64,000 nt of DNA from Gelidibacter maritimus (GTDB lineage Bacteria; Bacteroidota; Bacteroidia; Flavobacteriales; Flavobacteriaceae): NCBI RefSeq assembly GCF_014062315.1, contig NZ_JACGLT010000004.1:186001-250000 (forward strand), given 5' to 3'. Each line of letters starts with the position of its first letter. The first letter of the stretch is position 1. Positions 15,793 to 40,181 of the stretch are shown in pieces. The notes under the pieces were generated by a model, which saw nothing but the letters and a program-made list of their open reading frames with translations, ran no database searches and was not told where the DNA came from. Made by a program: the position numbers and the translations under genes.

Positions 15793-16542
15793 TTAGACGA
15801 AATTGATGCCGGCATTTTGATAATCTTTTAATTTTGGATTATTTGGATCATAATCGGTAACCACGGTTTCAACTTCTTTTATGTTGCACACTTCATAATT
15901 GAGTATTGAGTTTAGTTTATTGGATGTTGATAAAAAGACTGTGTGCTGTGAAGCATTGATCATTGCTTTTTTAACCAGTGAGACTTCGTAGCCTTCATCA
16001 GTAATGCCCTGTTCCAGACTTAGGGCACTCACCCCTATAAAGCAGATATTGGCCCGTAGACTGGATAAATATTGAATCACATCAATACCAGTGGTAACCA
16101 TTGAGCTGCGGTGGATTTTACCTCCAATAAAGATGGTTTCAATGGAATGATGCTCCGTTAATTGCATGGCTATTGGTAAGCTGTAGGTGTAAATAGTAGC
16201 TTTTAGTTTTTTTGGCAGCAGTTTGGCAAGCATTAAATTTGTGGTTCCGCCACTCATGATAATGACCATCCCGTCTTTGAGCAAGTTAATGGCTTTAAGG
16301 GCTATTCTAACCTTGTTTTCACGATTGTATATAATGTCTTCATTATAATGGTAAAGCTTTTGGATTGTTGAAATGGCACCACCATGAACCTTGGTAAGTA
16401 GTCCACGGTCATCCAATTCCTTGATATCCCTTCTGATGGTGTCTTCAGAGACTTTCAGTTTTTCCGACAAAAAGCTGGAACTGACCCTTCTATTGATGCT
16501 GACTTCATCAATTATTTTTTGCTGACGCTCTTTTTTCTTCAT
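15793..16542 (-). CDS. DeoR-family transcriptional regulator
   Basis: This 249-residue protein has an N-terminal DeoR helix-turn-helix (ERQQKIIDEV, then LSEKLKVSEDTIRRDI, residues 5-37, followed by LLTKVHGGA). A C-terminal DeoRC sugar-phosphate sensor domain follows, with IMSGGTTNLMLAKLL and IFIGGKIH. Family members usually repress sugar-use genes and release DNA on binding a phosphosugar. It is divergent from the nagX-SSS-murQ operon, so the natural effector would be MurNAc-6-phosphate, GlcNAc-6-phosphate or a related amino-sugar phosphate. That is inferred from position. Confidence 0.92.
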   Translation of the reverse strand: MKKKERQQKIIDEVSINRRVSSSFLSEKLKVSEDTIRRDIKELDDRGLLTKVHGGAISTIQKLYHYNEDIIYNRENKVRIALKAINLLKDGMVIIMSGGTTNLMLAKLLPKKLKATIYTYSLPIAMQLTEHHSIETIFIGGKIHRSSMVTTGIDVIQYLSSLRANICFIGVSALSLEQGITDEGYEVSLVKKAMINASQHTVFLSTSNKLNSILNYEVCNIKEVETVVTDYDPNNPKLKDYQNAGINFV

Positions 16543-16698: not shown

Positions 16699-17808
16699 AT
16701 GGGGAGTTCTAAAAGATTGATTTCAATAGATGTTTTAAGAGGGCTCACCATTGCATTAATGATTTTGGTGAATACGCCTGGGAGCTGGAGTTTTATCTAT
16801 GCGCCTTTTAGGCATGCCGCTTGGCATGGCTGTACGCCTACAGATTTAGTTTTTCCGTTTTTTATATTTATTGTGGGCATGTCTTTGTATTTTTCATTTA
16901 AAAAATATGACACCACACTAACCAAAGCTGCAGCATTTAAAATAATTAAGAGAACGATTCTTATATTTTTAATTGGACTTATCTTGAATTTATACCCTTA
17001 TTTTAATTTTGAGAAGGTAAGGGTCATGGGTGTTCTGCAACGGATCGCTTTGGCCTATGGAGTCGGTGCCATACTTTGTTTGGCATTGAATAAAAAGCAG
17101 TTGTTGATTATGCTAACGAGCATTTTATTAGGTTATTGGGCACTCTTGTACTTTGGCGCAGAATCTGATCCGTATTCCTTGGAAGAAAACATAGCAAGAC
17201 GTTTGGATCTTTTCCTCCTTGGAGAAGATCATATTTATAAGGGTTTCGGAATTCCCTTTGACCCAGAAGGCGTGCTATCTTCCATCCCAGCTGTGGGAAC
17301 CGTTATTATAGGTTATCTCATCGGTCAGACGATGGACTTCGAAAGCTCTCTTAAATTAAAAATCAGAAAATTGTTGATTTATGGTTCAATCATGTTCATT
17401 CTTGGTTGGGCTTGGTCATTCGTATTGCCTCTAAACAAACCTTTATGGACAAGTTCTTACGTATTATACACAGCGGGACTGGGAACACTTCTTTTGGCGC
17501 TTTTGATTTATATAATAGACTATAAAGGATTCCGTAAATGGACCAAACCGATAGTCCATTTTGGATCCAATCCTTTGTTCATTTTTGTGCTTTCAGGAAT
17601 CTACGTTAAGACCATTAGCTATTTGATAAAAATACCTGTTTCGGAAAGTTCATCATCAATCTCTTTGTATAATTATCTGTTTTCAAAAGTATTTGCTCCT
17701 CTATTTGGCAATATGAACGGGTCGTTAATGTTTGCCGTCAGCCACATCATTGTCTTTTGGCTGATTTGTTACTTGCTGTACCGAAAGAAAATTTTTATTA
17801 AAATATAA
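16699..17808 (+). CDS. NagX/MurT-like (DUF5009) membrane acyltransferase or transporter
   Basis: This 369-residue protein has about ten membrane segments. It starts RLISIDVLRGLTIALMILVN, then HAAWHGCTPTDLVFPFFIFIVG, the hallmark of the COG4299/DUF5009 family related to heparan-alpha-glucosaminide N-acetyltransferase. Members sit in GlcNAc-use clusters as NagX. As I recall, a Bacteroidota member has been reported to take part in MurNAc uptake. Here it is the first gene of an operon with murQ, so amino-sugar uptake or acetyl transfer across the inner membrane is likely. The choice between the two roles is open. Confidence 0.82.
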   Translation: MGSSKRLISIDVLRGLTIALMILVNTPGSWSFIYAPFRHAAWHGCTPTDLVFPFFIFIVGMSLYFSFKKYDTTLTKAAAFKIIKRTILIFLIGLILNLYPYFNFEKVRVMGVLQRIALAYGVGAILCLALNKKQLLIMLTSILLGYWALLYFGAESDPYSLEENIARRLDLFLLGEDHIYKGFGIPFDPEGVLSSIPAVGTVIIGYLIGQTMDFESSLKLKIRKLLIYGSIMFILGWAWSFVLPLNKPLWTSSYVLYTAGLGTLLLALLIYIIDYKGFRKWTKPIVHFGSNPLFIFVLSGIYVKTISYLIKIPVSESSSSISLYNYLFSKVFAPLFGNMNGSLMFAVSHIIVFWLICYLLYRKKIFIKI

Positions 17809-17954: not shown

Positions 17955-19409
17955 ATGAGCGCAACTTTAATTCTAATAATCATAGCCGGCTATTTTGGAC
18001 TATTACTGTTAATATCCAACATCGTTTCCAAAAATACAAGTGATGAATCCTATTATACGGGCGATAGAAAATCGCCATGGCAGATTGTTGCCTTTGGGAT
18101 GATTGGTGCCGTTCTATCAGGCGTCACTTTTGTATCCATTCCTGGCATGGTGGGCAATAACTACTTTTACTATTTACAGTTTGTTTTTGGCAATGTAGTG
18201 GGCTATGTTTTTATAACATACGTCCTGGTTCCTATTTATTATGATTTGAAGTTGGTGTCCATTTACACCTATTTAGAAACGCGTTTTGGAGCTAAGACTT
18301 ACAAGACGGGCTCTATGTTTTTCTTGATTTCTCAATCATTTGGTGCCGCCTTACGATTGATGCTCGCAGCAAAGATTCTGCAATATGCTGTCTTTGATGC
18401 TTTTGATATTCCGTTTTATGTTACAGTTATTCTCATCTTGGTGCTTATCTGGTTATATACCAATAAATCCGGAATTAAAACCATCGTTTGGACAGATACC
18501 CTGCAGACCTTTTTCTTATTGTTGGCTGTTTTTGTTTCAATTTATGTGGTGAAGACCTCTTTGAATTTAAATGTTTCAGAAACGATAACAGCAGTGACCG
18601 ATCACGAGTATTTTAAAATTTTTGATTGGGATTCTCATTCGGGAAACAACTTCTTTAAACAATTCATATCTGGGATGTTAATTGCTGTAGCTATGGTCGG
18701 CCTTGATCAAAATATGATGCAAAAGACCTTGACCTGTAAAAATAAAAAGGAAGCACAAAAAAACATTCTCACTTTCAGCATTTTCTTAGCGATTGCCCAA
18801 TTTTTGTTTTTGGGATTAGGCGTGATGCTTTATTTGTATGCCGAACAAATGGGGATTTCATTGGAAATAGAAAATGGACAATTTATCAATACTGATAATC
18901 TTTTCCCAATGTTGTCTCTCAACCATTTTGGAATGATTGCCGGAATCAGTTTTATTTTAGGAATAACTGCAGCGTCTTTTTCAAGTGCAGACTCAGCTTT
19001 AACAGCTTTGACTACCTCATTCACACATGATTTTTTAAATATTCAGACTAAGAGTGCCAAGAAAAAATTACAATTAAAAAATCGTACCTTATTTGGCTTC
19101 TCAGCATTTATTTTTCTCATTATTATGCTGTTTTCGGAAAGTAAGGGAGATGTCATCTCTACTATTTTTAAAGTGGCAGGATATACTTATGGTCCTCTGT
19201 TAGGCCTGTATATGATGGGTATTTTTACCAAAGTAAATGTTTATGACAGAGCCGTACCGTATATCTGTATTGCGATGCCGTTGGTGACCTATTTTCTAAA
19301 CTACGCGTTTATAGAATGGTACAATTTTGACTTTGGATTCATGAATATTTTTGTGAATGCCGCCCTCACTGTGATCTGTCTGTTATTTGCGAAAAAGAAA
19401 GTTATATAA
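17955..19409 (+). CDS. Sodium:solute symporter (SSS family)
   Basis: This 484-residue protein has about thirteen membrane segments in the SSS order. Typical segments are SYYTGDRKSPWQIVAFG and GAVLSGVTFVSIPGMVG near the N-terminus, and ASFSSADSALTALTTSFTHD near residue 340, which carries the sodium-site Ser/Ala pattern. SSS members beside sugar-use genes import monosaccharides, sialic acid or amino sugars with sodium. Next to murQ, 54 bases downstream, MurNAc or GlcNAc-MurNAc products are the most likely substrates. That is inference from context. Confidence 0.9.
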   Translation: MSATLILIIIAGYFGLLLLISNIVSKNTSDESYYTGDRKSPWQIVAFGMIGAVLSGVTFVSIPGMVGNNYFYYLQFVFGNVVGYVFITYVLVPIYYDLKLVSIYTYLETRFGAKTYKTGSMFFLISQSFGAALRLMLAAKILQYAVFDAFDIPFYVTVILILVLIWLYTNKSGIKTIVWTDTLQTFFLLLAVFVSIYVVKTSLNLNVSETITAVTDHEYFKIFDWDSHSGNNFFKQFISGMLIAVAMVGLDQNMMQKTLTCKNKKEAQKNILTFSIFLAIAQFLFLGLGVMLYLYAEQMGISLEIENGQFINTDNLFPMLSLNHFGMIAGISFILGITAASFSSADSALTALTTSFTHDFLNIQTKSAKKKLQLKNRTLFGFSAFIFLIIMLFSESKGDVISTIFKVAGYTYGPLLGLYMMGIFTKVNVYDRAVPYICIAMPLVTYFLNYAFIEWYNFDFGFMNIFVNAALTVICLLFAKKKVI

Positions 19410-19463: not shown

Positions 19464-20288
19464 ATGGAAAATAAATTAACCACTGAGCAGAGTTCTGCAT
19501 ATAACAATTTAGAAAAGATGGACACCTTTCAACTGCTTTCAAATATGAATACAGAAGATAAAACGGTTCCTGTTATCCTTGAAGAGGCCATCCCACAAAT
19601 TGAACTATTGGTAGATACCATATATCATAAAATGAAAGATGGTGGCCGCTTGTTTTATATCGGTGCTGGTACCAGTGGCCGTTTGGGTATTTTGGATGCC
19701 TCTGAATGTCCACCAACGTTTGGTGTTCCGGATAACATGGTGATAGCACTCATTGCAGGGGGCGATGTGGCGATGAGAAAAGCAGTTGAAAATGCAGAGG
19801 ATAATTCTGAATTGGGTTGGAAAGACCTGCAGGAATATAAGATAAGTAAAGATGACGTGCTCATTGGAATTGCGGCTTCAGGAACTACGCCTTACGTTAT
19901 CGGCGCAGTTAAGGAAGCTAAAAAACAGGGTATAATTACCGGCTGCATAACTTGTAATAAAAACTCCCCGTTGGCCGCAGAGGTTGATTTTCCTGTCGAG
20001 TTGGTCGTAGGTCCAGAGTTTGTTACAGGTAGCACCAGAATGAAAGCCGGAACTGCCCAAAAGCTCGCTTTGAATATGATTTCTACTACAGTGATGATCA
20101 AATTGGGAAGGGTTAGAGGCAATAAAATGATAGATATGCAGCTGTCCAATAAGAAATTGGTGAATAGAGCAGTTCAAATGATCATGAACGAACTTCAGGT
20201 AGATGAAGAACTTGCAGATAAATTATTGGCCGAGCATAAAAATGTAAGAAGCGCTATTGACAGCTATAATTCCCTAAGAAAGAAATGA
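19464..20288 (+). CDS. murQ: N-acetylmuramic acid 6-phosphate etherase
   Basis: This 274-residue protein is a SIS-domain MurQ. The segment FYIGAGTSGRLGILDASECPPTFG (about residues 58-81) holds the sugar-phosphate loop and the catalytic Glu of SECPP. Later GIAASGTTPYV, PEFVTGSTRMKAGTAQK and LSNKKLVNRAV are family signatures. It cleaves the lactyl ether of MurNAc-6-phosphate to give GlcNAc-6-phosphate and D-lactate in the cytoplasm. Its stop overlaps the start of the GH3 gene (ATGA). No MurNAc kinase is encoded in the window, although its substrate must be phosphorylated. Confidence 0.96.
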   Translation: MENKLTTEQSSAYNNLEKMDTFQLLSNMNTEDKTVPVILEEAIPQIELLVDTIYHKMKDGGRLFYIGAGTSGRLGILDASECPPTFGVPDNMVIALIAGGDVAMRKAVENAEDNSELGWKDLQEYKISKDDVLIGIAASGTTPYVIGAVKEAKKQGIITGCITCNKNSPLAAEVDFPVELVVGPEFVTGSTRMKAGTAQKLALNMISTTVMIKLGRVRGNKMIDMQLSNKKLVNRAVQMIMNELQVDEELADKLLAEHKNVRSAIDSYNSLRKK

Positions 20289-21976
20289 AAAAGTTTTTAA
20301 CAATAATGGGCATTATGCTCTTCATGATAACCTCCTGCACAGAGGTCACTAATAAGCGTCCAGTCGAAATCGATGAACGGGCCCAATGGGTCGATAGTAT
20401 TTATAGCGGCATGTCGCTTAAAGAAAAAGTGGGACAATTATTTATGGTCAGTGCGTATTCCAACAGAGATGATTCCCATACCGATTCTATTCATAAACTG
20501 ATCAATGACTATCACTTAGGCGGACTTATCTTCTTTCAAGGAGGACCAATCCGACAAGCAACACAAACCAATCTCTACCAATCTGCTTCTAAAATTCCTT
20601 TATTTATAGGGATTGATGGTGAATGGGGGTTAAACATGCGCTTGGATAGTACATCAAGATATCCGTATAATATGACCTTAGGTGCGATAACTAATAATAA
20701 AATTATCAGAAAGATCGGAGAGCAAATTGGAAAGGATTGTAAGCGAATGGGCATTCATATCAATTTTGCGCCCGTGGTTGATATCAATACCAATTCGGAA
20801 AACCCTGTCATTGGCGTTCGTTCTTTTGGTGAAGACAAAGTTAATGTAACAGAAAAGGCTTGGGCATTTACCGACGGACTGCAAAGTGCTGGAGTTTTGG
20901 CCAGTGCCAAACATTTTCCGGGCCATGGCGATACAGCCTCTGACTCCCATAAAACACTACCAACGGTGGCGTTCACGAAAGAAAGATTGGACACGGTAGA
21001 ACTCTATCCTTATAAAGAGTTATTCAATAAAGGGGTTGCAGGTGTTATGGTCGCCCATTTGAACGTGCCCAATTTAGAACGTCAAGAAGGATTACCTTCT
21101 TCATTGTCCTACCAAATAGTTACTGAATTGCTTAAAGAGCAACTGGGCTACGAGGGACTTATTTTTACCGATGCCTTAAATATGAAAGGTGTCGCTGACT
21201 ATGGGCAGCCCGGTGATATCGATTTGGCGGCCTTTAAGGCAGGTAACGATGTGCTTCTCTTTACAGAGGACGCACCAAAAGCCATCTCAAGGATTATGGA
21301 AGCATATCAAGAAAAGGAGATCACGGAGCAACGTCTGGCTCATTCTGTAAAGAAAATTCTTAACGCAAAATACGATGTGGGTTTGAATGCTTATAAGCCT
21401 ATTGAATTGGAAAACCTTGTTGAGGAGTTAAACCGAGATGTAAACCAAGAGTTATACCAAGAGGCCATAAGAAATGCTATTACACTTGTTAAAAATGAAG
21501 AGCAGTTATTGCCGCTGACTGAAAATGATCAGGAAAAAATTGCCTTTGTAAATTTGGGCAATGACACTGGCGATCTCTTTTTCGAAGCTTTGAAATTAAA
21601 AGGAAATGTGACTGATATCAAATATTCTTCATCGCGGAATTTGTTAAATAAACTGCGCAAGTTTGATAGGGTAATCATAGGATATCACAGAAAAAATAGT
21701 AGAATTACGAGAGCTATTTCAGCCGCCGATAAACGACTTATCGAAACCATTTCAAAAAACCACAAAACTATTCTAACCGTTTTTGCTAGTCAATACAGTT
21801 TAAAAGAGACCAATTTAAACAATGTGGAAAGTGTGCTTATTTCCTTTGAAAATTCAGAAGTGGCGAACAGGGCTACTGCTGAAATTATTTTTGGAGAATC
21901 AGAGGTAAATGGTGTTTTGCCTGCATCAATTTCCAAGGATTTTCCTGTTCAAATTGGAATTAATATTTCGCAGTAA
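20285..21976 (+). CDS. NagZ-like GH3 beta-N-acetylhexosaminidase, lipoprotein
   Basis: This 563-residue protein has a lipoprotein signal (MLFMITSC, Cys at about 18). The GH3 TIM-barrel domain has the NagZ signature KHFPGHGDTASDSH (about residues 209-222, including the Asp-His acid/base pair) and the nucleophile Asp in IFTDALNMKGV. A C-terminal GH3 second domain (about residues 395-560) follows, making it longer than enterobacterial NagZ. It removes terminal beta-GlcNAc, for example from GlcNAc-MurNAc. The lipid anchor places it in the periplasm or outer membrane, unlike cytoplasmic E. coli NagZ. It is coupled to murQ. Confidence 0.92.
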   Translation: MKKFLTIMGIMLFMITSCTEVTNKRPVEIDERAQWVDSIYSGMSLKEKVGQLFMVSAYSNRDDSHTDSIHKLINDYHLGGLIFFQGGPIRQATQTNLYQSASKIPLFIGIDGEWGLNMRLDSTSRYPYNMTLGAITNNKIIRKIGEQIGKDCKRMGIHINFAPVVDINTNSENPVIGVRSFGEDKVNVTEKAWAFTDGLQSAGVLASAKHFPGHGDTASDSHKTLPTVAFTKERLDTVELYPYKELFNKGVAGVMVAHLNVPNLERQEGLPSSLSYQIVTELLKEQLGYEGLIFTDALNMKGVADYGQPGDIDLAAFKAGNDVLLFTEDAPKAISRIMEAYQEKEITEQRLAHSVKKILNAKYDVGLNAYKPIELENLVEELNRDVNQELYQEAIRNAITLVKNEEQLLPLTENDQEKIAFVNLGNDTGDLFFEALKLKGNVTDIKYSSSRNLLNKLRKFDRVIIGYHRKNSRITRAISAADKRLIETISKNHKTILTVFASQYSLKETNLNNVESVLISFENSEVANRATAEIIFGESEVNGVLPASISKDFPVQIGINISQ

Positions 21977-22007: not shown

Positions 22008-23477
22008 ATGGAAAGAACTCTACACAACAAGCTCATCGTTTTATTGGCCTGTATGGCGATTCATACCATGTTTTCTCAGGAAATTATTCAGGTAGGTCCA
22101 CACCAAATGCAAAAAGAAGAATTTGGTAAAGTTACGACAGATGCCACCCAACGAGATGCCAGTAAAACGGCTGAAGAGCTAATTGGTTTAAATGCTTCAA
22201 GAGCACCCGCATTGAGTAAAAAAGTATTTGGCTTTTTGCCATACTGGGAGCAGAGTTCTGGGGCTCATAACAATATTCGCTATGATTTATTGACCCATTT
22301 GGCCTGCTTTGATTTTTTGGTGCAATTGGATGCATCTATTGCTACACCTGCGGGATGGCCATGGACGGCTGAAATAAATGCTGCCCATGCACAAGGCGTT
22401 AAAGTTATAATGACTGTAGTTAATTTTGGCGGTGCCGATGGAGCAGATGCCGTGGTCTGGGAATTGATTACCAATCCAACCAAAAAAAATCTATTCTTCA
22501 ATAATGTCAAAAACTTAATTGAAACCTACAATTTGGACGGCGTCAATATTGATTTTGAAGGAATGTCCTCCGCTCATCGGGGTGCAGAACTGAATGCATT
22601 CTTGTCTGATCTAACCACATATATCCATACCGAACTCCCAGGAAAGGAAGTTTCTTTTGATGGACCGGCTGTCAATTGGGGCGGATGGGATATAGAGGGT
22701 TTGGTCGATAGTGTAGATTATGTGGTCATTATGGCTTATGATTATACGTCTGCAAACAGTGCAAATTCAGGCCCAATTGCACCATTAACACACCATACTT
22801 CATGGAAACGTTCTATTAAGCGTACCATAGAGACAGGTACCTATGCCGTTCCAACGGCAAATACTCCTGAAAAATTGATTATGGCAGTTCCATACTACGG
22901 GCAACATTGGAAAACAGAGACCAACGTCTCCGAATCGGTAACCATATCGCATGTATCGTCCACACGTTATAGAAATACAGTAACGGAGGCAGATAGCCAC
23001 GGTGGTTTTATATGGAATTCAGATTTTGAATATCCATGGTATAGATGGAACGACGGGGCCAATTGGAACCAAGTTTGGACCGATAACGAATTGAGCATCT
23101 CAAAAAAATTCGATTTGGCCATAGACAACAATTTAGGAGGTGTAGGGATGTGGGCCTTAAATTATGACGGAGGCCGACCAGAGCTTTGGGAATTGATCAA
23201 TACTAAGTTTGGTGCAACGGCTTCTGTTGGTGATGCGAGTTTGAATCAGATTAAAGTCCATCCCAATCCGACTTCAGGTTATGTAAATATAACAAATACC
23301 AACGCTGTTAAATTCACTAAAATGGAACTGTTCAATATTATGGGCGCTTCTGTTTTAAAGATGACCTCTCATTTTGAAAATATAAACATGACGCCATTTG
23401 AAAACGGATTGTATTTTTTAGAAGTTGAAGATGATCAAGGTGCCCAAGCCACCTTCAAAATTTTAAAATCCAATTAG
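22008..23477 (+). CDS. GH18 glycoside hydrolase with T9SS type A sorting domain
   Basis: The start at 22008 gives a proper signal peptide (LIVLLACMAIHTMFSQ); an upstream in-frame ATG at 21909 lies within the GH3 gene. The GH18 domain spans about residues 65-400, with FGFLPYWE at its start, catalytic LDGVNIDFEG (DxxxDxE, about residues 177-186) and VIMAYDYTS. The C-terminal 70 residues (VHPNPTSGYVNI, MELFNIMGASVLK, ENGLYFLEV) are a type A sorting domain, so it is secreted or surface-bound by T9SS. GH18 enzymes cut beta-1,4 GlcNAc linkages in chitin or glycan strands of peptidoglycan. It precedes the NamZ-like gene. Confidence 0.92.
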   Translation: MERTLHNKLIVLLACMAIHTMFSQEIIQVGPHQMQKEEFGKVTTDATQRDASKTAEELIGLNASRAPALSKKVFGFLPYWEQSSGAHNNIRYDLLTHLACFDFLVQLDASIATPAGWPWTAEINAAHAQGVKVIMTVVNFGGADGADAVVWELITNPTKKNLFFNNVKNLIETYNLDGVNIDFEGMSSAHRGAELNAFLSDLTTYIHTELPGKEVSFDGPAVNWGGWDIEGLVDSVDYVVIMAYDYTSANSANSGPIAPLTHHTSWKRSIKRTIETGTYAVPTANTPEKLIMAVPYYGQHWKTETNVSESVTISHVSSTRYRNTVTEADSHGGFIWNSDFEYPWYRWNDGANWNQVWTDNELSISKKFDLAIDNNLGGVGMWALNYDGGRPELWELINTKFGATASVGDASLNQIKVHPNPTSGYVNITNTNAVKFTKMELFNIMGASVLKMTSHFENINMTPFENGLYFLEVEDDQGAQATFKILKSN

Positions 23478-23581: not shown

Positions 23582-24799
23582 ATGAAATATCTTTTTTTAT
23601 GTTTTATTAGCCTTATAGCTTGTAATGAAACGACTAAGAAAAATCAAGTTAAAGAGGACAGCATGGTTGTTGCGGAAGTTGAAAAATTGGCAATTGTAAC
23701 AGGAGCAAATCAAACCGATGTTTATCTTAAGCTTTTAGAGGGTAAGAATGTGGGTGTAGTGGCAAACCAAACCAGCGTTATTTTTAAGGATGAAAGCGAA
23801 CAAAACCACACCCATCTTGTCGATTCCTTATTGGCATTGGACGTCAAGGTGACCAAAGTCTATTCACCTGAGCATGGTTTTCGTGGCACTGCGGATGCTG
23901 GCGAATATATAGAGGATGGCATTGATGAAAAAACAGGTTTGCCTATCTTTTCTCTTTATGGTAAAAATAGAAAGCCTCCGGTTGAATATTTAAAGGATAT
24001 TGACGTGATGCTGTTTGATGTTCAGGATGTTGGCGTTCGTTTTTATACCTATATCTCCACACTTCATTATGTGATGGAAACTGCCGCAGAGCTTAATATT
24101 CCAGTCATTATTTTAGATCGTCCAAATCCTAATGGCCATTATATTGATGGTCCTATTTTGGAAAGCGAGGTTAAAAGTTTTGTGGGCATGCACCCAGTAC
24201 CTATTGTATATGGAATGACCATTGGTGAATATGGAAAGATGATCAATGGCGAAAAATGGATGGAGAATGGCATTCAATGTGAACTTACGGTAATTCCGCT
24301 TAAAAACTACACTTACAATTCAGAATACGATTTGCCTATTAAGCCATCACCAAACCTTCCCAATGCCACATCCATCAATTTGTACCCGAGTGTTTGCTTT
24401 TTTGAAGGTACCACATTAAGCTGCGGACGGGGTACGGAAATGCAGTTTCAGGTTTTTGGGGCGCCATTTTTACCAAAAGACAAATTCGATTTCAGCTTTA
24501 CACCGCAACCCAATTTTGGGGCAAAAACGCCAAAACATCAAGGAGAAGTGTGCTATGGAAGAGATTTAAGAAATGTGAAACGGCTTAATGAAGTCAAGTT
24601 GGATTGGCTGGTAGAGACATACAATGCTACACCAGATCAACAGACATTCTTTAATGATTTCTTTCCAAAGCTGGCTGGGACTAAAAAGCTGCAACAACAG
24701 ATTGAAGAGGGAATGTCTATTGGAGACATCAGAGAAAGCTGGAAACCACGATTGGAGACTTTTGCAAAAACGAGAGAAAAATATTTGATATATAACTAA
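23582..24799 (+). CDS. namZ: NamZ-like exo-N-acetylmuramidase (DUF1343, GH171), lipoprotein
   Basis: This 405-residue protein has a lipoprotein signal (CFISLIAC). The body is DUF1343: VGVVANQTSV, VYSPEHGFRG, DVMLFDVQDVGVRFYTY, VIILDRPNPNG, PSPNLPN, and LYPSVCFFEGT. DUF1343 was shown in Bacillus subtilis to be NamZ, an exo-beta-N-acetylmuramidase (GH171) that releases MurNAc from MurNAc-GlcNAc ends. With the GH3 enzyme it would trim peptidoglycan glycans in turn. The lipid anchor puts it in the envelope. It matches MurQ in the same operon. The gene symbol is by family analogy. Confidence 0.9.
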   Translation: MKYLFLCFISLIACNETTKKNQVKEDSMVVAEVEKLAIVTGANQTDVYLKLLEGKNVGVVANQTSVIFKDESEQNHTHLVDSLLALDVKVTKVYSPEHGFRGTADAGEYIEDGIDEKTGLPIFSLYGKNRKPPVEYLKDIDVMLFDVQDVGVRFYTYISTLHYVMETAAELNIPVIILDRPNPNGHYIDGPILESEVKSFVGMHPVPIVYGMTIGEYGKMINGEKWMENGIQCELTVIPLKNYTYNSEYDLPIKPSPNLPNATSINLYPSVCFFEGTTLSCGRGTEMQFQVFGAPFLPKDKFDFSFTPQPNFGAKTPKHQGEVCYGRDLRNVKRLNEVKLDWLVETYNATPDQQTFFNDFFPKLAGTKKLQQQIEEGMSIGDIRESWKPRLETFAKTREKYLIYN

Positions 24800-24927: not shown

Positions 24928-27447
24928 ATGAAAAAATTATTATTTGTTGCAAGTCTTAGTTTTCTTCTAATTTCCGCTGTAGCGCAGCCATCTGTAGGAA
25001 AGCAGGTGGGAGTTTCCGTCATTCGGATCAATCAGTTGGGATATACACCAACCTCCATAAAAGTTGCGGTGTTTGGTGCCATTGAGCACGCCAAGATTGA
25101 GGTATTCACTCTTCATGACGCATTAACGGATAAAGTGGTTTTTCAATCGAAAAGACCAATTTCAAAAGGAGCTTACGGACCATTTAAATCGTCGTATCGT
25201 CTGAATTTTAGCGAATTTGAAACACCAGGGAAATACTATCTCATGGCTAACGGCATTAAATCGCCTGAATTCCGAATCAACACTGATGTTTATGACCATA
25301 CCGCCGATTTTCTACTGGAATATATGCGTCAGCAACGTTGCGGCTATAATCCCTATTTGACGGCGTCATGTCATTTGGATGACGGCTATATTTTGTACAA
25401 TCCAGGGAAGGAAGGAGAGCGAATTGATGTCACCGGTGGGTGGCATGATGCCTCCGATTATCTACAATACACCGCCACTTCAGCCAATGCAGTCTTCCAG
25501 TTGTTGTTTGCATATCGTGACAATCCAGAAGCGTTTGACGATGCCTATGACGCTGATGGACTACCAGGACCAAATGGGATTCCTGATATTATCGATGAAG
25601 CAAAATTTGGTATGGATTGGCTTAAAAAAATGAACCCATCCGACACAGAATATTATAACCAAATTGCCGATGATCGGGATCATTCTGGGTATCGCTTGCC
25701 CAATAAAGATTCGGTTGTCTATGACCCTAATCGTAAAGGGCGTCCTGTATATTTGGCAAGCGCTGAGAAACAAGGTGTTTTAAAATATAAGAATAGATCA
25801 ACAGGGGTGGCCTCCACCGCAGGGAAGTTTGCATCGGCATTTGCTATTGGTGCCACAGTCTTAAAAGATTTTTATCCTGAATATACAAGGTATATGGGAA
25901 AACGCGCAGAAGAGGCTTATCGGTATGGCGAATTGCATCCAGGGGTAAGCCAAACCGCACCCGGACGCTCCCCTTATTTTTACGAAGAAGACAATTGGAT
26001 TGATGATATGGAATTGGCGGCGAGTAGTCTTTATAAACTTACAGGTGATGAAAGGTTTAAAAAAAGTGCCCTGAAGTACGCTTCAGAAGAAAAAATAACA
26101 CCTTGGATTGGCCGGGATACCATTTTACATTATCAGTATTATCCCTTCTTGAACGCTGGCCATCATGAATTGGCCACAGCACTTAAATCGGATGATCGAA
26201 AAGAAGTCACCTCTTATTATGCCAAGGGACTAAAGATGCTTCATGAGCGTGGCAAAGACAATCCGTTCTATATTGGAATTCCATTTGTTTGGTGCTCTAA
26301 TAATTTTGTGACTGCCGCAGTTACACAGAGCAGACTATATTATAATCTTTCTGATGATGATACCTATCTTGAAATGGAAGCAGCACTGCGCGATTGGCTT
26401 TTTGGATGTAATATTTGGGGAACTTCCATGATTGTTGGGCTTCCTGCTGATGGCGATTCGCCTACAGATCCGCACTCATCACTTTATCTCTTGGAAGTTT
26501 ATCAGACCAATGGCGGATTGATAGACGGTCCGGTTTACGCGTCTATTGCAAACAGCTTAATAGGTGTCGAGCTTCATGAGAAAGATGAATACGCGCAGTT
26601 TCAATCTGATTTGGTGGTATATCAGGATGATGTGGGAAGCTACTCTACCAACGAGCCAACAATGGATGGGACTGCTTCTTTGGTCTATTACCTATCATCC
26701 TTAGAAAGCGAAAGCATTAGAAATGGAAATAAAAAGAAACGATATACTTATGATTCGAGCGGTGCCATTGTTAGAGGAGACAGATCTGCAAAGAAAATCA
26801 GTTTACTGTTTTCAGGTGATGAATACGCCGATGGTGCGGAAGAAATATTAAGAGTTTTGGAGAAGCATAACATAAAAGCTTCTTTCTTTCTTACTGGAAA
26901 TTTTTATAGAAACGAAAATTTTGCGCCATTCATCAAAAATGCGAAGACATCGGGGCACTATCTCGGTGCACATTCCGATAAGCATTTGCTGTATAACGAT
27001 TGGACAGAAGAAAAGAAACTATTGGTGAGCCAAGATGAATTTAAGAACGATTTAAAAGCGAATTATGACGAAATGGAAAAGTATGGCATACAGAAAGATG
27101 ATGCTCCTTACTTTTTACCTCCGTTTGAATGGAACGATCATATCATCACTCAGTGGGCAGATCAAATGAGTATTCAAATAATCAACTATAGTCCAGGTAC
27201 AATTTCGCACGCAGACTATACCACTCCAGAGATGGAGAATTATAGATCTTCTGAAGCAATTGTAAATTCTATCCTTAATTTGGAGGAAACAGATGGATTA
27301 AATGGATTTTTACTTTTGTCGCATATCGGAACACATCCTGATAGAACAGATAAGTTTTATAACAAGCTTGATGAGTTAATTACCACTTTGAAAGCAGATG
27401 GATACGAATTTGATACCTTGGTCAGAAACTTGAGTTTGAAAAATTAA
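24928..27447 (+). CDS. GH9 hydrolase fused to NodB-type polysaccharide deacetylase
   Basis: This 839-residue protein starts with a signal peptide (FLLISAVAQ). An N-terminal Ig-like CelD_N domain follows (about 28-120; IRINQLGYTP). The GH9 catalytic domain (about 125-600) has the nucleophile/base motif GGWHDASD at 170-177 and the acid Glu in STNEPTMDGTASLVYYLS. The C-terminal NodB domain (about 620-839) has SGDEYADG near 629-636 in place of TFDDG, ASFFLTGNF, and HSDKH at 682-686. GH9 is mostly cellulase, but bacterial GH9 exo-glucosaminidases of chitin-disaccharide operons are known. Here deacetylation of GlcNAc units and cleavage of the resulting glucosamine by one protein is a plausible inference. 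It is the last gene of the operon, before a hairpin terminator. Confidence 0.88.
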   Translation: MKKLLFVASLSFLLISAVAQPSVGKQVGVSVIRINQLGYTPTSIKVAVFGAIEHAKIEVFTLHDALTDKVVFQSKRPISKGAYGPFKSSYRLNFSEFETPGKYYLMANGIKSPEFRINTDVYDHTADFLLEYMRQQRCGYNPYLTASCHLDDGYILYNPGKEGERIDVTGGWHDASDYLQYTATSANAVFQLLFAYRDNPEAFDDAYDADGLPGPNGIPDIIDEAKFGMDWLKKMNPSDTEYYNQIADDRDHSGYRLPNKDSVVYDPNRKGRPVYLASAEKQGVLKYKNRSTGVASTAGKFASAFAIGATVLKDFYPEYTRYMGKRAEEAYRYGELHPGVSQTAPGRSPYFYEEDNWIDDMELAASSLYKLTGDERFKKSALKYASEEKITPWIGRDTILHYQYYPFLNAGHHELATALKSDDRKEVTSYYAKGLKMLHERGKDNPFYIGIPFVWCSNNFVTAAVTQSRLYYNLSDDDTYLEMEAALRDWLFGCNIWGTSMIVGLPADGDSPTDPHSSLYLLEVYQTNGGLIDGPVYASIANSLIGVELHEKDEYAQFQSDLVVYQDDVGSYSTNEPTMDGTASLVYYLSSLESESIRNGNKKKRYTYDSSGAIVRGDRSAKKISLLFSGDEYADGAEEILRVLEKHNIKASFFLTGNFYRNENFAPFIKNAKTSGHYLGAHSDKHLLYNDWTEEKKLLVSQDEFKNDLKANYDEMEKYGIQKDDAPYFLPPFEWNDHIITQWADQMSIQIINYSPGTISHADYTTPEMENYRSSEAIVNSILNLEETDGLNGFLLLSHIGTHPDRTDKFYNKLDELITTLKADGYEFDTLVRNLSLKN

Positions 27448-27520: not shown

Positions 27521-28369
27521 TCAGCTTTGATGTGGAATCACCATAAAAGGAATCGGCGAATGATATCCTAATTTCTTAATAACAGGCTCATTGAGTACAT
27601 ATTCGAGGAAGCTATGCGTATAGTTTATCATGGTAATGAGCTTGATATTGTTTTCTTCAATAAAAGCAGAAATAATTTCCTCTTTAGTCCCTATTTCAGG
27701 AATCCAATGTATATTATGCGGTTGATCTTTAAGATGTTGGGTGAGTGCATTTAAATTGTTCTGTTGCTTCTCAGTTAGATCATCAGGACCGCTAATATGT
27801 AAGATTTCGAGATCGGACTTTTGCAACTTCGCTAAACTTAGGAGCGGACGAATTTCATCACCATAAGGTCGTTTAAAATCGGTAGCGAATGCCATGCGGT
27901 CAGTTGTAGCATACTCATAATTATAGGGCACTAATAAAACAGGGCAAAGTTTAACTTTCTTGATCACGTTTACACTATTGCTGCCAAGCAGAAGCTCTTT
28001 AGCTCCCGTAGCACCCTTAGTGCCCATGACAACAAGATCTATGGCATTGTCCTGTATGGCAGTTTTGATGGATGCAGTAAGGTAATCTTCACTAAAAATT
28101 GATTCAAATTTGTGTTCAGAATTAGGACTTACAAATTTTGCGCGCTCTTTTAAAGTTTCTAACTGTTCTTTAGAAGTGTTTTGTAGTTGGTCTATATAAC
28201 TTGGCGAAATATAGGTTCTGGATCCTGTATTCACAAATGTCCAAGCGTGCGAAAAATAAAAGGTACAAGGTACCTTGGCGTATAATCTTATGGCATAAAG
28301 TGCGGCACTCCATGCGTTCTCTGAAAAATCTGTCGGTAGTAAAATATGATGTCTCATAATTATTATCAA
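27521..28369 (-). CDS. Universal stress protein, tandem UspA domains (paralogue 1)
   Basis: This 282-residue protein has two UspA-like halves. The first begins HILLPTDFSENAWSAALYA and has the nucleotide-binding signature GTKGATGAKELLLGSNSVNVI (G-2x-G-9x-GS). The second half (about residues 150-282) lacks a full ATP motif and ends in PFMVIPHQS. It is a cytoplasmic stress or nucleotide-sensing protein of unknown target. It is strongly similar to the protein encoded at 29800-30636 (same domain plan and many identical segments), which points to gene duplication. Confidence 0.92.
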   Translation of the reverse strand: MIIIMRHHILLPTDFSENAWSAALYAIRLYAKVPCTFYFSHAWTFVNTGSRTYISPSYIDQLQNTSKEQLETLKERAKFVSPNSEHKFESIFSEDYLTASIKTAIQDNAIDLVVMGTKGATGAKELLLGSNSVNVIKKVKLCPVLLVPYNYEYATTDRMAFATDFKRPYGDEIRPLLSLAKLQKSDLEILHISGPDDLTEKQQNNLNALTQHLKDQPHNIHWIPEIGTKEEIISAFIEENNIKLITMINYTHSFLEYVLNEPVIKKLGYHSPIPFMVIPHQS

Positions 28370-29799: not shown

Positions 29800-30636
29800 T
29801 TAGTCTTTACGTGGAATCACCAAAAATGGAATTTTAGACTTAAACCCTAATTTCTTTATGATAGGTTCTTTGATGATGTTTTCGATAAAACTATGCTCAT
29901 AATTGATCATAGTCAGGATTTTGACATTGTTTTCTTTAATGAAATCAGATATTACATCGGCTTTTGCACGATTACTTGGTAGCCAATTAAAAGTGTGTGC
30001 ATAGTCTTTTAAATGTGTCTTCAACCGTTCAAAATTTTCGTTTTGTGTTTCGGTTAATCCATCCTTGCTTTTGATGTGCAGGACGTTAATAGTAGCCTTG
30101 GTCATATCGGCTAATTGTGTTATTGGCAATAGATCTTCGCCAAAAAACCTACTGAAGTCAGAAGGGAAAGCAATTTGGTCCGGTTTCACAAATTCACACT
30201 TTGTTGGCACAAGCATTATAGGGCACAACCTTACTTTGTTAATAACGGAAACAGTATTGCTTCCAAGAATATACTTTTTGGCACCTGTAGCACCTTTAGT
30301 ACCCATAAAAACCAAATTGATGTTGTGCTTTTTAATAGATACTTCTATACATTCTTCCAAAGAGCCGACCGTATAAATTGTTTCAAACTTATGTTCAGGA
30401 TTTGTACTTTCTTTCTCAGCACGCGCTTTGACCTCAGCTAATTGTTCTTTCGATTTCTCAATTAGTGGATCTATATAACTCTGAGAAATATGGGTCCGAG
30501 CACCTGAATTTAGAAAAGTCCAGGCGTAGGAAAAATAAAACGTACAAGGCTCATCAGCGTACAAACTTAGAGCGTAACGTGCCGCGCTCCATGCATTATC
30601 TGAAAAATCTGTTGGTATTAAAATATGCTGTCTCAT
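29800..30636 (-). CDS. Universal stress protein, tandem UspA domains (paralogue 2)
   Basis: This 278-residue protein has the same plan as the product of 27521-28369: HILIPTDFSDNAWSAARYA at the N-terminus, GTKGATGAKKYILGSNTVSVI as the nucleotide site, and a second half ending PFLVIPRKD. The two share many identical blocks, as expected of duplicates. It has its own upstream region with a -7 element and a tandem repeat (30688-30738), so it may be regulated separately from paralogue 1. Confidence 0.92.
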   Translation of the reverse strand: MRQHILIPTDFSDNAWSAARYALSLYADEPCTFYFSYAWTFLNSGARTHISQSYIDPLIEKSKEQLAEVKARAEKESTNPEHKFETIYTVGSLEECIEVSIKKHNINLVFMGTKGATGAKKYILGSNTVSVINKVRLCPIMLVPTKCEFVKPDQIAFPSDFSRFFGEDLLPITQLADMTKATINVLHIKSKDGLTETQNENFERLKTHLKDYAHTFNWLPSNRAKADVISDFIKENNVKILTMINYEHSFIENIIKEPIIKKLGFKSKIPFLVIPRKD

Positions 30637-37201: not shown

Positions 37202-37295
37202 TATGAAACAGACGTTCCTAAATAGCAATCATATAAGAAAAGGTCTCTCGGGAATGTTCCAAGTGTACATCAATAAATACGTATGGCATAGCCCA

Positions 37296-40181
37296 ATGAA
37301 AACTTTTTTGCTGACCATAATATGTAGTTTCTGTTCCATCCAGATGTTCTATTCCCAAGAGGAAGATGGCGTCGTCTCGCTTAGTATACCTGTAAGAAAC
37401 TCATTAACCTACAATAGATACACAATCAATCCAACCTTTAGTTTTGTTAGAGAACAAAATAGATATATCAGTGTTTATAATAAGCGGGAGTGGGTTCAGT
37501 TTGATGATGCGCCACAAACCTATTTAGCAGGCTATTATGGTAGGTTTGCAGAAAATATTGGCGCAGGTGTGGGCGTGTTTCAACAAGATTATGGTGTGCT
37601 TACTACATTTGGTGGACTATTGAATTTTGCCTATAACGTGAGATTGAAACGGGATAGTAATTTGACTTTCGGTTTAAATTTGGGCGTTTATAAAAGTGGC
37701 ATAAATACAGGACGGGTGGTCACTAATTTTTCTGACCCATCTCTTGAGCATGTCCCATCACATCTTTTACTTACTGTAAACCCAGGCATTAACTACGGTA
37801 CTAAGTTTTTGGATTTTGGCGCGTCTATCAATAACCTGATACTTTATAATGTGCAAGCCTCAGAACTTCTGAATGACGATCCACGTCAAACGCTTCAGGC
37901 ACATATTATGTACACGGGTTATATATATAGTGGTGGCTTTTTTGATGAGTCAAAATTCTCTGGATTGTTGAGGTCTGAATTTGGTGAAGAGGATACTTCA
38001 ATTTCAGGCATTGCTATGTTGACCGTGCCTAAGGGAATTTGGGCACAAGTAGGTTATAATACGGTTTACGGCGCATCGGCCGGTTTAGGGCTTAATATTA
38101 CGAAACAAATTGCCATTGAATACAATTTCGAAAAAGCCTTAGGCGATCTGACCCACTTTGGACCATCGCATGAAATAACCCTAGCTTTCAAACTTAACAA
38201 CAATTCTTATTATGATTACAGTGCCGAAGATGAAATGTCTGCACTTATCAATTCAGATAATAAACGTGTCTTAGCCTCAAGCAAGCCTAGGATGGATGCT
38301 GAAACACGAGCGCAGCTATTGGCAGAGTCGTCCGCCAGAAGAGAGGAAGTGAGAGAAAGAGCAAAAGAAAGAGCAGAAACCCGTGCACAGATTACGGCTG
38401 AAAACAGGGCCAGAATTGAACGTCAGTCAGAGGCAAGATTAGCGGCAGAAAACAAGGCCAAACAAGAAGAGCAAGAACGCGCCGTTGCAAACCCAACTCT
38501 GGTAGAAAATGCAAAATCTGAAACAATTGCTACAACTGGAAGCGGTGAAAATCAACCAACAGAAACTGACGAGAGCTTAGACGCGCAAAATAAAGCAAAA
38601 TCTGAAAGCAATGTTCTAACCAAACGAGATGCAGAGGCACAAGCAGCACTAGCGGCTCAAGAAAAATCCAAAGCGGAGGCTAAAGCCAGAGCTGACGCGC
38701 AGGCAAGACTCGCTGCTGAAGCAAAAGCATACAATGAAGCAAAAGAACGATTAGCGGCCGAGACGAAAGCTAAAGCAGACGCTGAGGCTAAAGCCAGAGC
38801 GGAGGCACAGGCAAGACTTGCTGCTGAAGCCAAAGAAGCCAAAGAAGCACAAGAGAGATTGGCCGCCCAAACGAAGGCCAAAGAGGAAGCAGAGGCTAAA
38901 TTAGCAGCGGAGGCTAAAGCTAGAGCAGAAGCACAGGCAAGACTCGCTGCTGAAGCAAAAGCTGCGAAAGAAGCACAAGAGAGATTGGCCGCCCAAGCGA
39001 AAGCCAAAGAAGAAGCAGAGGCTAAGTTGGCAGCAGAAGCCAAAGCTAAAGCTGATGCGGCAGCAGCAAAAGCTAAACAAGGGGCTGAAGCCCAGTTGGC
39101 GTTGGAAACAAAAGCGAGGCTTGAAGCTGAACAAACTGCAAAATTAGCTGCAGAAGAAAAGGCGAAGCAAGAAGCAAAAGCAGCTCAAGCAGCAGCCATG
39201 GCTGAATCAAAAGCTAAACAGGAAGCTGAGGCTTTAGCCAAGCTTGAAGCGGAAAATGCAGCACTTGCAGAAGAAACTGAAAAAGAACAAGAGGCTGTAG
39301 TGAATCCAACAGATGCTTTAGGTATTTCAATGAAATCTCTTGCTGATATGACGGAGGCTTCAAAAAGCACTCAAGATGAATTATTGGCCAGATTCGATGC
39401 AATGGTGGTTAGTAAAAATCAAGATCTCAAGGATTTGAAAGAAGAAAACGATTTGAGAGAGCAAGGAATTTTCAGTGCACCAAAACCCTTTAAGAGTATT
39501 ACTGAAGAAAACAATGTCCTTCAAGCTATTCGATCAGATTTAGATAATATGATAGACGTCAATACTGAAAGAATTAAGGAGCTGGAAGATTTATATGCGG
39601 AGCGTATTAAGGTACCGACACTTAAAAATGATGAGGTCACCTTGTATTATCAAAAGACAATTAAAACATTAAAGGCCGAACAAGCACGGGCCATTCAGAC
39701 CAGAACTCAATTGAGTACCACCTTAAAAGGTATTAATGAGGCTACAGAATTTGAGAGAAAGCGGAGAATTAAACGTGCTGCTTTTAACAATGAAGAAGAT
39801 AGATATGCGCAAGATAGAGCCACATTGACGAGAATTAAAGAAAATACACCGCTGAGCCCAGTTCCTTTAAAAGCTGAAGATTTTAATTTTGGTGAAGAAC
39901 AAGGCAATAATATTCAAATTATTAAAAATGTTAAGAATGTTGAAAGTGGTTATTATGTTGTTGTTGCTGTTCATAATGATGCTGTCAGTAGAGACGAATT
40001 TTTAACCAAAGCAGTCGCTGCAGGTCAGTCTAATATCGATTTCTTCTACGATGTCAACACGAGTAGATATTTTATTTACTATAAAAAACTGGATAGTATA
40101 AGTGCAGCAAGTGAAGAAATGAAAACTAAAGGAAACCAACCTTATAACGGAAAAATGTCAATTATTAAAATAGAGAACTAA
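37296..40181 (+). CDS. sprD: SprD-like PorP/SprF barrel fused to long Ala-rich coiled coil
   Basis: From the ATG at 37296 a typical signal peptide follows (MKTFLLTIICSFCSIQMFYSQ). An in-frame ATG at 37203, one base after sprC, would add 31 residues. Residues about 22-310 are a PorP/SprF-type outer-membrane barrel (AGYYGRFAENIGAGVGVFQQ, VGYNTVYGASAGLGLNI). Residues about 330-665 are low-complexity Ala/Glu/Lys/Arg repeats around AEAQARLAAEAKA, forming a very long single helix or coiled coil. Residues 670-960 hold more helix and an SPOR-like end (SGYYVVVAVHNDAVS, SRYFIYYKKLDS). The protein probably links the outer-membrane site of SprB secretion to the periplasm or wall. Placement before sprB supports the sprD call. 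Confidence 0.78.
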   Translation: MKTFLLTIICSFCSIQMFYSQEEDGVVSLSIPVRNSLTYNRYTINPTFSFVREQNRYISVYNKREWVQFDDAPQTYLAGYYGRFAENIGAGVGVFQQDYGVLTTFGGLLNFAYNVRLKRDSNLTFGLNLGVYKSGINTGRVVTNFSDPSLEHVPSHLLLTVNPGINYGTKFLDFGASINNLILYNVQASELLNDDPRQTLQAHIMYTGYIYSGGFFDESKFSGLLRSEFGEEDTSISGIAMLTVPKGIWAQVGYNTVYGASAGLGLNITKQIAIEYNFEKALGDLTHFGPSHEITLAFKLNNNSYYDYSAEDEMSALINSDNKRVLASSKPRMDAETRAQLLAESSARREEVRERAKERAETRAQITAENRARIERQSEARLAAENKAKQEEQERAVANPTLVENAKSETIATTGSGENQPTETDESLDAQNKAKSESNVLTKRDAEAQAALAAQEKSKAEAKARADAQARLAAEAKAYNEAKERLAAETKAKADAEAKARAEAQARLAAEAKEAKEAQERLAAQTKAKEEAEAKLAAEAKARAEAQARLAAEAKAAKEAQERLAAQAKAKEEAEAKLAAEAKAKADAAAAKAKQGAEAQLALETKARLEAEQTAKLAAEEKAKQEAKAAQAAAMAESKAKQEAEALAKLEAENAALAEETEKEQEAVVNPTDALGISMKSLADMTEASKSTQDELLARFDAMVVSKNQDLKDLKEENDLREQGIFSAPKPFKSITEENNVLQAIRSDLDNMIDVNTERIKELEDLYAERIKVPTLKNDEVTLYYQKTIKTLKAEQARAIQTRTQLSTTLKGINEATEFERKRRIKRAAFNNEEDRYAQDRATLTRIKENTPLSPVPLKAEDFNFGEEQGNNIQIIKNVKNVESGYYVVVAVHNDAVSRDEFLTKAVAAGQSNIDFFYDVNTSRYFIYYKKLDSISAASEEMKTKGNQPYNGKMSIIKIEN
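38284..39290 (+). repeat. Imperfect DNA repeats encoding the Ala-rich helix
   Basis: Units of about 90-130 bases encoding variants of KARAEAQARLAAEAKA and KEAQERLAAQ recur head to tail, best conserved at about 38650-39060. Long reading frames on the opposite strand here are by-products of the codon bias. Such arrays are prone to copy-number change. Confidence 0.75.

Follow-up and report, generated by a model that had tools for sequence, protein, structure and literature searches.

The window analysed here, a stretch of 64,000 nucleotides from Gelidibacter maritimus (Flavobacteriaceae; contig NZ_JACGLT010000004.1, positions 186,001 to 250,000), carries an amino-sugar operon whose last gene encodes a glycoside hydrolase of family GH9 joined to a domain of the NodB type, as found in deacetylases of the carbohydrate esterase family CE4 (Table 1). 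An earlier note on this DNA had recognized the fusion, and Pfam indeed finds CelD_N, GH9 and NodB matches in succession within a single open reading frame (ORF) of 839 residues. Membership of the hydrolase in GH9 follows from a score of 218 bits against a curated cut-off of 27.7, and residues 618-747 match Polysacc_deac_1 (PF01522) with 43.2 bits (E 4.6e-11) against a cut-off of 23.1. Given its N-terminus, the protein is probably exported, and it may reside in the periplasm.

Table 1. Features of the GH9-NodB fusion gene and of the genes that accompany it (positions in the window; residue numbers of the fusion protein).
Feature	Position	Strand	Basis and remarks
GH9-NodB fusion gene, 839 aa, ATG start	24928..27447	+	ORF list and Pfam
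Probable signal peptide, about residues 1-19	24928..24984	+	Judged by eye from the translation, no signal-peptide program
CelD_N Ig-like domain, residues 31-112	25018..25263	+	Pfam, E 3.5e-17
GH9 catalytic domain (Glyco_hydro_9), residues 122-589	25291..26694	+	Pfam, E 3.6e-64; fold comparison
GH9 catalytic Asp pair D174 and D177, in WHDASD (residues 172-177)	25447..25458	+	69/69 aligned; 57/57 without near-copies
DDRDH, residues 248-252, family signature	25669..25683	+	69/69 at all five positions
PHSS, residues 515-518, in place of cellulase H-x-R	26470..26481	+	Arg lost (alignment column 518)
GH9 catalytic acid E576	26653..26655	+	69/69; 57/57 without near-copies
NodB-like domain, about residues 612-835	26761..27432	+	Pfam match 618-747; conserved region; fold comparison
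NodB motif-1 position, SGDEYADG, residues 629-636	26812..26835	+	In place of TFDDG, both Asp lost; alignment to PdaA
NodB motif 2, HSDKH, residues 682-686	26971..26985	+	H682 and H686 in 71/72, the other a gap
NodB motif-3 position, LPPFE, residues 730-734	27115..27129	+	Arg replaced by Leu; new invariant E734
NodB motif-4 Asp, D763	27214..27216	+	72/72
NodB motif-5 His, H799, then R806, D808, K809	27322..27354	+	H799 72/72, R806 72/72, D808 71/72, K809 68/72
DeoR-type regulator, divergent from the operon	15793..16542	-	Pfam
NagX/HGSNAT-like transmembrane glucosamine N-acetyltransferase	16699..17808	+	PF07786 over cut-off; NCBIfam NagX 164 bits, below cut-off of 480
SSS sodium symporter, candidate permease for N-acetylmuramic acid or an amino sugar	17955..19409	+	Pfam; superfamily of TfMurT (PMC5790795)
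MurQ, N-acetylmuramic acid-6-phosphate etherase	19464..20288	+	NCBIfam, over cut-off
GH3, NagZ-like beta-N-acetylhexosaminidase	20285..21976	+	Pfam; NCBIfam PRK05337 159 bits, below cut-off of 207
GH18 with type IX secretion system (T9SS) tail, YdhD-like	22008..23477	+	Pfam (longer reading from 21909); best PDB match YdhD
NamZ exo-N-acetylmuramidase	23582..24799	+	Both NamZ Pfam domains

The catalytic residues of the GH9 domain and its family signature are kept in every aligned relative, and D174 and H682, the two residues singled out in the earlier note, lie within WHDASD and HSDKH. Residue counts refer to 69 GH9 and 72 NodB sequences, near-copies included, the main ones having been recounted without these (57 GH9, 60 NodB); the alignments exclude the window's own copy (L030), one of them also omits L009, whose NodB part is truncated, and the weakest match (L029) gave no row. 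The Arg of the cellulase H-x-R motif, a glucanase signature not established as a requirement for all GH9 enzymes, is missing throughout: position 518 holds Ala in 37 sequences, Ser in 27, Pro in three and Gly or Val in one each, and the Asn six residues past the catalytic Glu has given way to Thr (Thr582 here) or Ser in all 69. Alignments to BoGH9A, CelD, 3x17 and AaCel9A retain both the Arg and the Asn, and that to J30 retains the Arg. Vibrionaceae GH9 exo-glucosaminidases are marked by long loops that close the pocket after subsite -1; in the model of the GH9 domain studied here, several active-site loops fall below 50 in pLDDT (predicted local distance difference test).

These replacements bear on the alternative that the protein is a common secreted glucanase of family GH9 which stands in the operon by chance and whose NodB tail is dead. 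By fold it is closest to endoglucanases, and the top Foldseek matches contain a xyloglucanase from Bacteroides, yet the loss of the glucanase Arg from all 69 aligned sequences, a score of at most 123 bits against any solved chain (compared with 379 and 396 bits for the matches of two other Flavobacteriaceae GH9s, L047 and L042, to BoGH9A) and a conserved NodB partner make this very improbable. L047 and L042 were also examined as a bridge to the Vibrio exo-glucosaminidase VC0615, and they have BoGH9A as best match and VC0615 not among their matches.

In the NodB part it is the active site that is altered, and the earlier note's reading, SGDEYADG instead of TFDDG with HSDKH kept, proved accurate when the domain was aligned to PdaA, an alignment that also places the motif-4 Asp and motif-5 His. 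Of the 72 copies, 68 now read Ser or Thr at motif-1 position 629 and Gly or Ala at 630 and four have gaps there, while position 730, that of the motif-3 Arg, is Leu, Met, Ile or Val in all 72, as invariably followed, two residues past the motif-3 proline pair, by the gained Glu734. The functional positions stay invariant in the 60 copies left after removal of near-copies. Decay or a sequencing fault was rejected as the origin of the odd motif, the same positions being replaced in every aligned copy. As the motif-3 Arg of CE4 enzymes holds the motif-1 catalytic Asp (PMC10967932, PMC4505593), the joint loss of these partners, together with the gain of a Glu, makes the site look rebuilt rather than decayed, and E734 may serve as a base or metal ligand. 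Both active and inactive proteins are known among non-canonical NodB folds; 3CL6 is described as a non-metal enzyme that has neither motif-1 Asp (PMC10967932).

An altered site might also mean that the GH9 domain is the sole enzyme, taking glucosamine (GlcN) off peptidoglycan that is already N-deacetylated, with the NodB part as a substrate-binding pseudoenzyme. The motif-1 Asp pair and motif-3 Arg are, after all, lost wherever aligned, 4 of 40 genomes with the GH9 have no such NodB, and a NagZ-like GH3 is already there for N-acetylglucosamine (GlcNAc); moreover, one of the fold matches, BA3943, bears the title of a CE4 pseudoenzyme, and inactive CE4-type proteins are known in BA0330 and BA0331, which bind peptidoglycan and are reported to have no deacetylase activity, though they keep motif 1 (PMC4505593). 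Mere binding would hardly demand, however, that E734, D763, H799 and R806 be invariant in all 72 copies, or that each of the 71 copies aligned there keep H682 and H686, stand-alone NodBs included. We regard a purely binding role as unlikely.

How widely the two parts occur together was surveyed by profile searches for the GH9 part and the NodB subfamily across a draw of 395 genomes of the phylum Bacteroidota, in which few candidates per genome (7 in one search, 3 in the other) were scored after a loose first pass, so that absences are soft. The GH9 subfamily, scoring at least 665 bits and thus well separated from the next group (at most 377 bits), is found in 40 genomes, and the NodB subfamily in 41, at 288-386 bits, with nothing else down to the E limit of 1e-20. 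Both parts occur in 36 genomes, fused in 23, adjacent in 8 (in reverse order in G210) and unlinked in 5, while 4 genomes have the GH9 only and 5 the NodB only. Removal of the fused and adjacent genomes leaves 5 with both, 4 and 5 with one and 350 with neither (Fisher p 6e-7, with related genomes counted as independent), which supports the conservation of the GH9 and NodB parts as partners. On a quick GH9 tree of 61 rows (58 of the subfamily and 3 paralogs) the fused label changes 7 times, at least 4 of these being forced by strong branches, and this points to repeated fusion or fission. The fusion, which the earlier note had thought unusual, is thus recurrent in Bacteroidota. Elsewhere, a stand-alone NodB subfamily domain is joined to a beta-lactamase2 domain instead of a GH9 (G442, L161:6620-8524).

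In the window, the ORF list, Pfam and NCBIfam place the fusion as the final gene of a same-strand run that begins at 16699 and continues, after the NagX/HGSNAT-like gene, with SSS, MurQ, NagZ-like GH3, GH18 and NamZ; the MurQ and NamZ neighbours named in the earlier note are therefore sound assignments. The best solved match of the GH18 is Bacillus subtilis YdhD, titled a sporulation-specific glycosylase, and its other five include a cortical-lytic enzyme and several chitinases; the N-termini of the GH3 and NamZ resemble, by eye, lipoprotein signals. The presence of MurQ, SSS, NamZ and NagZ-like GH3 in the run makes it look like a salvage operon for N-acetylmuramic acid (MurNAc) or muropeptides, with a transporter of predicted substrate: the symporter is read as MurT-like because the MurNAc transporter of Tannerella forsythia is a sodium symporter encoded beside murQ (PMC5790795) and because MurQ and SSS genes stand side by side in G210. 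Pfam matches none of the genes in this run to a MurNAc kinase; AnmK is encoded on another contig of the genome, and the genome also has a second MurQ; a BadF-type kinase was considered and set aside, with a single weak genomic match below the cut-off. Promoter and terminator scans gave nothing beyond shuffled controls.

The nearest named relatives, 83-84% identical over the NodB part, are Gelidibacter species, in which (L004, L005) SSS, MurQ, GH3, GH18, NamZ and fusion come in identical order; a third genome of the genus (L171) matches that order without the GH18. Downstream of the fusion lie two similar-looking universal-stress-type genes (27521-28369 and 29800-30636, minus strand; the first scanned with Pfam), and genes of like size and strand come next in L004 and L005. 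The window also encodes, at 37203-40181, a protein of 992 residues with a long, repeated middle rich in Ala, Lys and Glu that looks, by eye, like a coiled coil.

Gene neighbourhoods were compared among 71 target loci (84 before merging at 80% identity), 20 GH9-paralog loci and, from the same genome set, 40 regions picked arbitrarily. L001-L003 and L039-L059 were left aside, and L031-L038 and L060-L119 gave way to longer stretches taken from their own genomes. The markers, 16 in all, were chosen after part of the loci had been seen, so the survey is descriptive, and its p values are uncorrected for their number. Two or more of eight marker families occur at 12/71 target, 7/20 paralog and 1/40 arbitrary loci (p 0.019, target against arbitrary), and at least two of 13 at 15/71, 7/20 and 1/40 (p 0.005). 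An SSS gene is near in 7/71, 0/20 and 0/40, while MurQ (4/71, 0/20, 1/40), NamZ (6/71, 0/20, 1/40) and NagX-like genes (4/71, 0/20, 1/40) are not significant alone. NlpC/P60 and MLE neighbours were dropped as a cell-wall mark, since the paralog control has them in 7/20 and 11/20.

MurQ is present in all 46 genomes searched for it (40 of the phylum draw and 6 chosen Flavobacteriaceae) and lies within 15 kb of the GH9 in 6 of them, or 4 of 40 genera against 0.35 expected (p 0.0005); once the window's genus is set aside, the figures are 3 of 39 against 0.33 (p 0.005), and 2 against 0.23 (p 0.02) at 10 kb, all with distance limits set after the positions were seen and related genera counted as independent. 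These data support a repeated, if minority, link of the GH9-NodB genes to MurQ and the SSS symporter. In G150 and G501 (loci L139 and L147), split GH9 and NodB genes are followed in a row by MurQ and SSS, and the run also has a gene of the SusD family upstream of them; a first impression that SusD adjoins the GH9 did not hold, as a metallophosphatase/PQQ-like gene, and in L139 two more genes, lie between. G031 and G111 have SSS, GH9, MLE epimerase and NlpC/P60 with no NodB gene at the locus, other copies neighbour NlpC/P60, the Ala/Glu-epimerase-like MLE, NamZ or SpoIID, and NagX-like genes occur in the operon at L006, L019/L122 and L173 and nearby at L009.

Some further gene sets recur. A SIS - MFS - ROK set is found near the GH9(-NodB) gene at L006, L014, L018, L019/L122, L121 and L127, the SIS protein of L006 being of the PRK02947 sugar isomerase-domain type. 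A GHL10 (PF02638) cluster, possibly a further cell-wall hydrolase, recurs in the operons of L020, L139, L174 and L175 (the L020 and L174 copies scanned with Pfam). The GH9 paralog, a second Bacteroidota group (L178-L197, at most 377 bits), shares its run with genes for a KaiC-like ATPase and a large TPR protein at 20/20 loci and for a PgaC/NodC-like glycosyltransferase at 14/20; the arrangement looks like an exopolysaccharide operon whose hydrolase is the GH9.

On the architecture, two-domain partnership, residue conservation and operon context, all directly observed, we build a tentative reading, which we hold to be possible rather than probable and in which the substrate, the exo mode of cleavage, the chemistry of the NodB part, the order of the steps and the localization are conjectural: the fusion would work in the periplasm on amino-sugar fragments of the peptidoglycan type, in two steps, first deacylating them and then removing the terminal amino sugar. 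GH18, NamZ and GH3 would degrade glycan strands outside the cytoplasm. The NodB-like domain would strip an N-acyl group at a rebuilt site, in which His682 and His686 hold a metal and Glu734 stands in for the missing motif-1/motif-3 pair. Through the inverting mechanism with Asp and Glu that is usual in its family, the GH9 domain would then release a terminal beta-linked free amino sugar, either GlcN or the amino sugar next to muramic acid (MurN), left by NagZ and NamZ. The NagX-like protein might give freed GlcN its acetyl group back at the membrane, and MurNAc might be taken up via the SSS symporter and processed through MurQ.

Several observations weigh against this proposal. With both motif-1 Asp residues lost, deacetylation by the NodB part cannot be assumed. 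The GH9 domain resembles endoglucanases more than the Vibrio exo-glucosaminidases in both sequence and fold, and its membership in their Vibrionaceae subgroup (VC0615, PBPRA0520, VP2484) is not supported, these not being its closest relatives by either measure. The operon's NagZ-like GH3 should remove terminal GlcNAc without deacetylation, so that GlcN-MurNAc or a second N-acyl group would be likelier natural targets. Among the 71 target loci, 49 are without any of the 13 cell-wall and amino-sugar families, and L006, L019/L122, L121 and L127 have ROK, MFS, SIS, YdjC or NagA neighbours, a GlcN/GlcNAc-type set, and no MurQ. In G125 and G133 the nearest MurQ and SSS genes, paired with each other, are found a long way from those for the GH9 and NodB parts, an arrangement that, along with the NodB-less loci among the MurQ-linked ones, weakens the two-step peptidoglycan reading and raises its non-peptidoglycan rival.

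That rival holds that the pair acts on another amino-sugar glycan, such as chito-oligosaccharides, an exopolysaccharide or an envelope glycan, and has MurQ and NamZ for neighbours because the released sugars share a pathway. The marker-free loci, the GlcN/GlcNAc-type sets, the remote MurQ-SSS pairs and the KaiC, TPR and glycosyltransferase runs of the GH9 paralog are all in keeping with it, but MurQ and SSS stand beside the GH9 in several genera beyond chance and NamZ, GH18 and GH3 lie within the window's own operon; we view it as a serious, if doubtful, contender. The survey of fusions and neighbours for which the earlier note had called thus returned a recurrent partnership and a link to MurQ and SSS beyond chance, but also a majority of loci without such context. 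That note's scheme, in which GlcNAc is deacetylated and glucosamine then released, is likewise supported in part. A GH9-NodB unit in an amino-sugar/MurNAc operon, conserved partners and a Thermococcus precedent (PMC6566704) speak for it, whereas the lost motif-1 Asp pair, the distance from known GH9 exo-glucosaminidases and a GH3 already suited to GlcNAc do not.

A bolder version, which we think somewhat unlikely, would have these proteins form a recurrent, apparently undescribed Bacteroidota family that pairs a NodB fold of new centre (two His, Glu734 and Arg806/Asp808, with no motif-1 Asp) with a GH9 exo-glycosidase of new specificity, the two acting one after the other on fragments of peptidoglycan that are N-deacetylated or N-acylated. 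The GH9-NodB fusion is not named in the titles and abstract openings listed by searches of an open-licence library. If the proposed role is true, a GH9 conserved with a NodB partner and, in several genera, beside MurQ and a MurT-like symporter would be a new enzyme for cell-wall salvage and would show how bacteria use peptidoglycan that contains glucosamine and may be beyond the reach of NagZ and NamZ. The NodB domain offers a natural test of how its fold works without both motif-1 aspartates, and automatic annotation may label GH9-NodB proteins cellulases.

Known systems resemble parts of this arrangement. The GH9 family consists mainly of endoglucanases, with one small, mostly Vibrionaceae group of exo-glucosaminidases, of which VC0615 cleaves (GlcN)2 and not (GlcNAc)2 (PMC6096475); with VC0615 and PBPRA0520 the fusion shares the GH9 fold, an N-terminal Ig-like/Fn3 domain, the catalytic Asp/Asp/Glu and an amino-sugar context (PMC6096475). 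It is closest in sequence and fold to the endoglucanases and xyloglucanase 3x17, J30, CelD and BoGH9A, but differs from them in the lost H-x-R Arg and post-Glu Asn, its gene context and its NodB partner. From the CE4/NodB deacetylases PdaA, BC1960 and BA0150 it is set apart by the absence, where aligned, of the motif-1 Asp-Asp and motif-3 Arg and by the invariant E734 and R806. Polysaccharide-deacetylase domains do occur in multi-domain hydrolases, xylanases being named, and the supplementary architectures of that work may include GH9 cases (PMC4928363). The proposed order of steps is that of Thermococcus, in which the deacetylase Dac precedes the exo-glucosaminidase GlmA on chitobiose (PMC6566704). 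There, however, the two are separate proteins, GlmA being assigned to GH35, and the substrate is chitin rather than muropeptides. Dac is not known to belong to the CE4 family. The operon of Tannerella forsythia, murT-murK-murQ, likewise sets a sodium symporter, its MurNAc transporter TfMurT belonging to that superfamily, next to MurQ (PMC5790795), whereas the run described here, which carries no kinase gene, adds NagX-like, GH3, GH18 and NamZ genes and, at its end, the GH9-NodB fusion.

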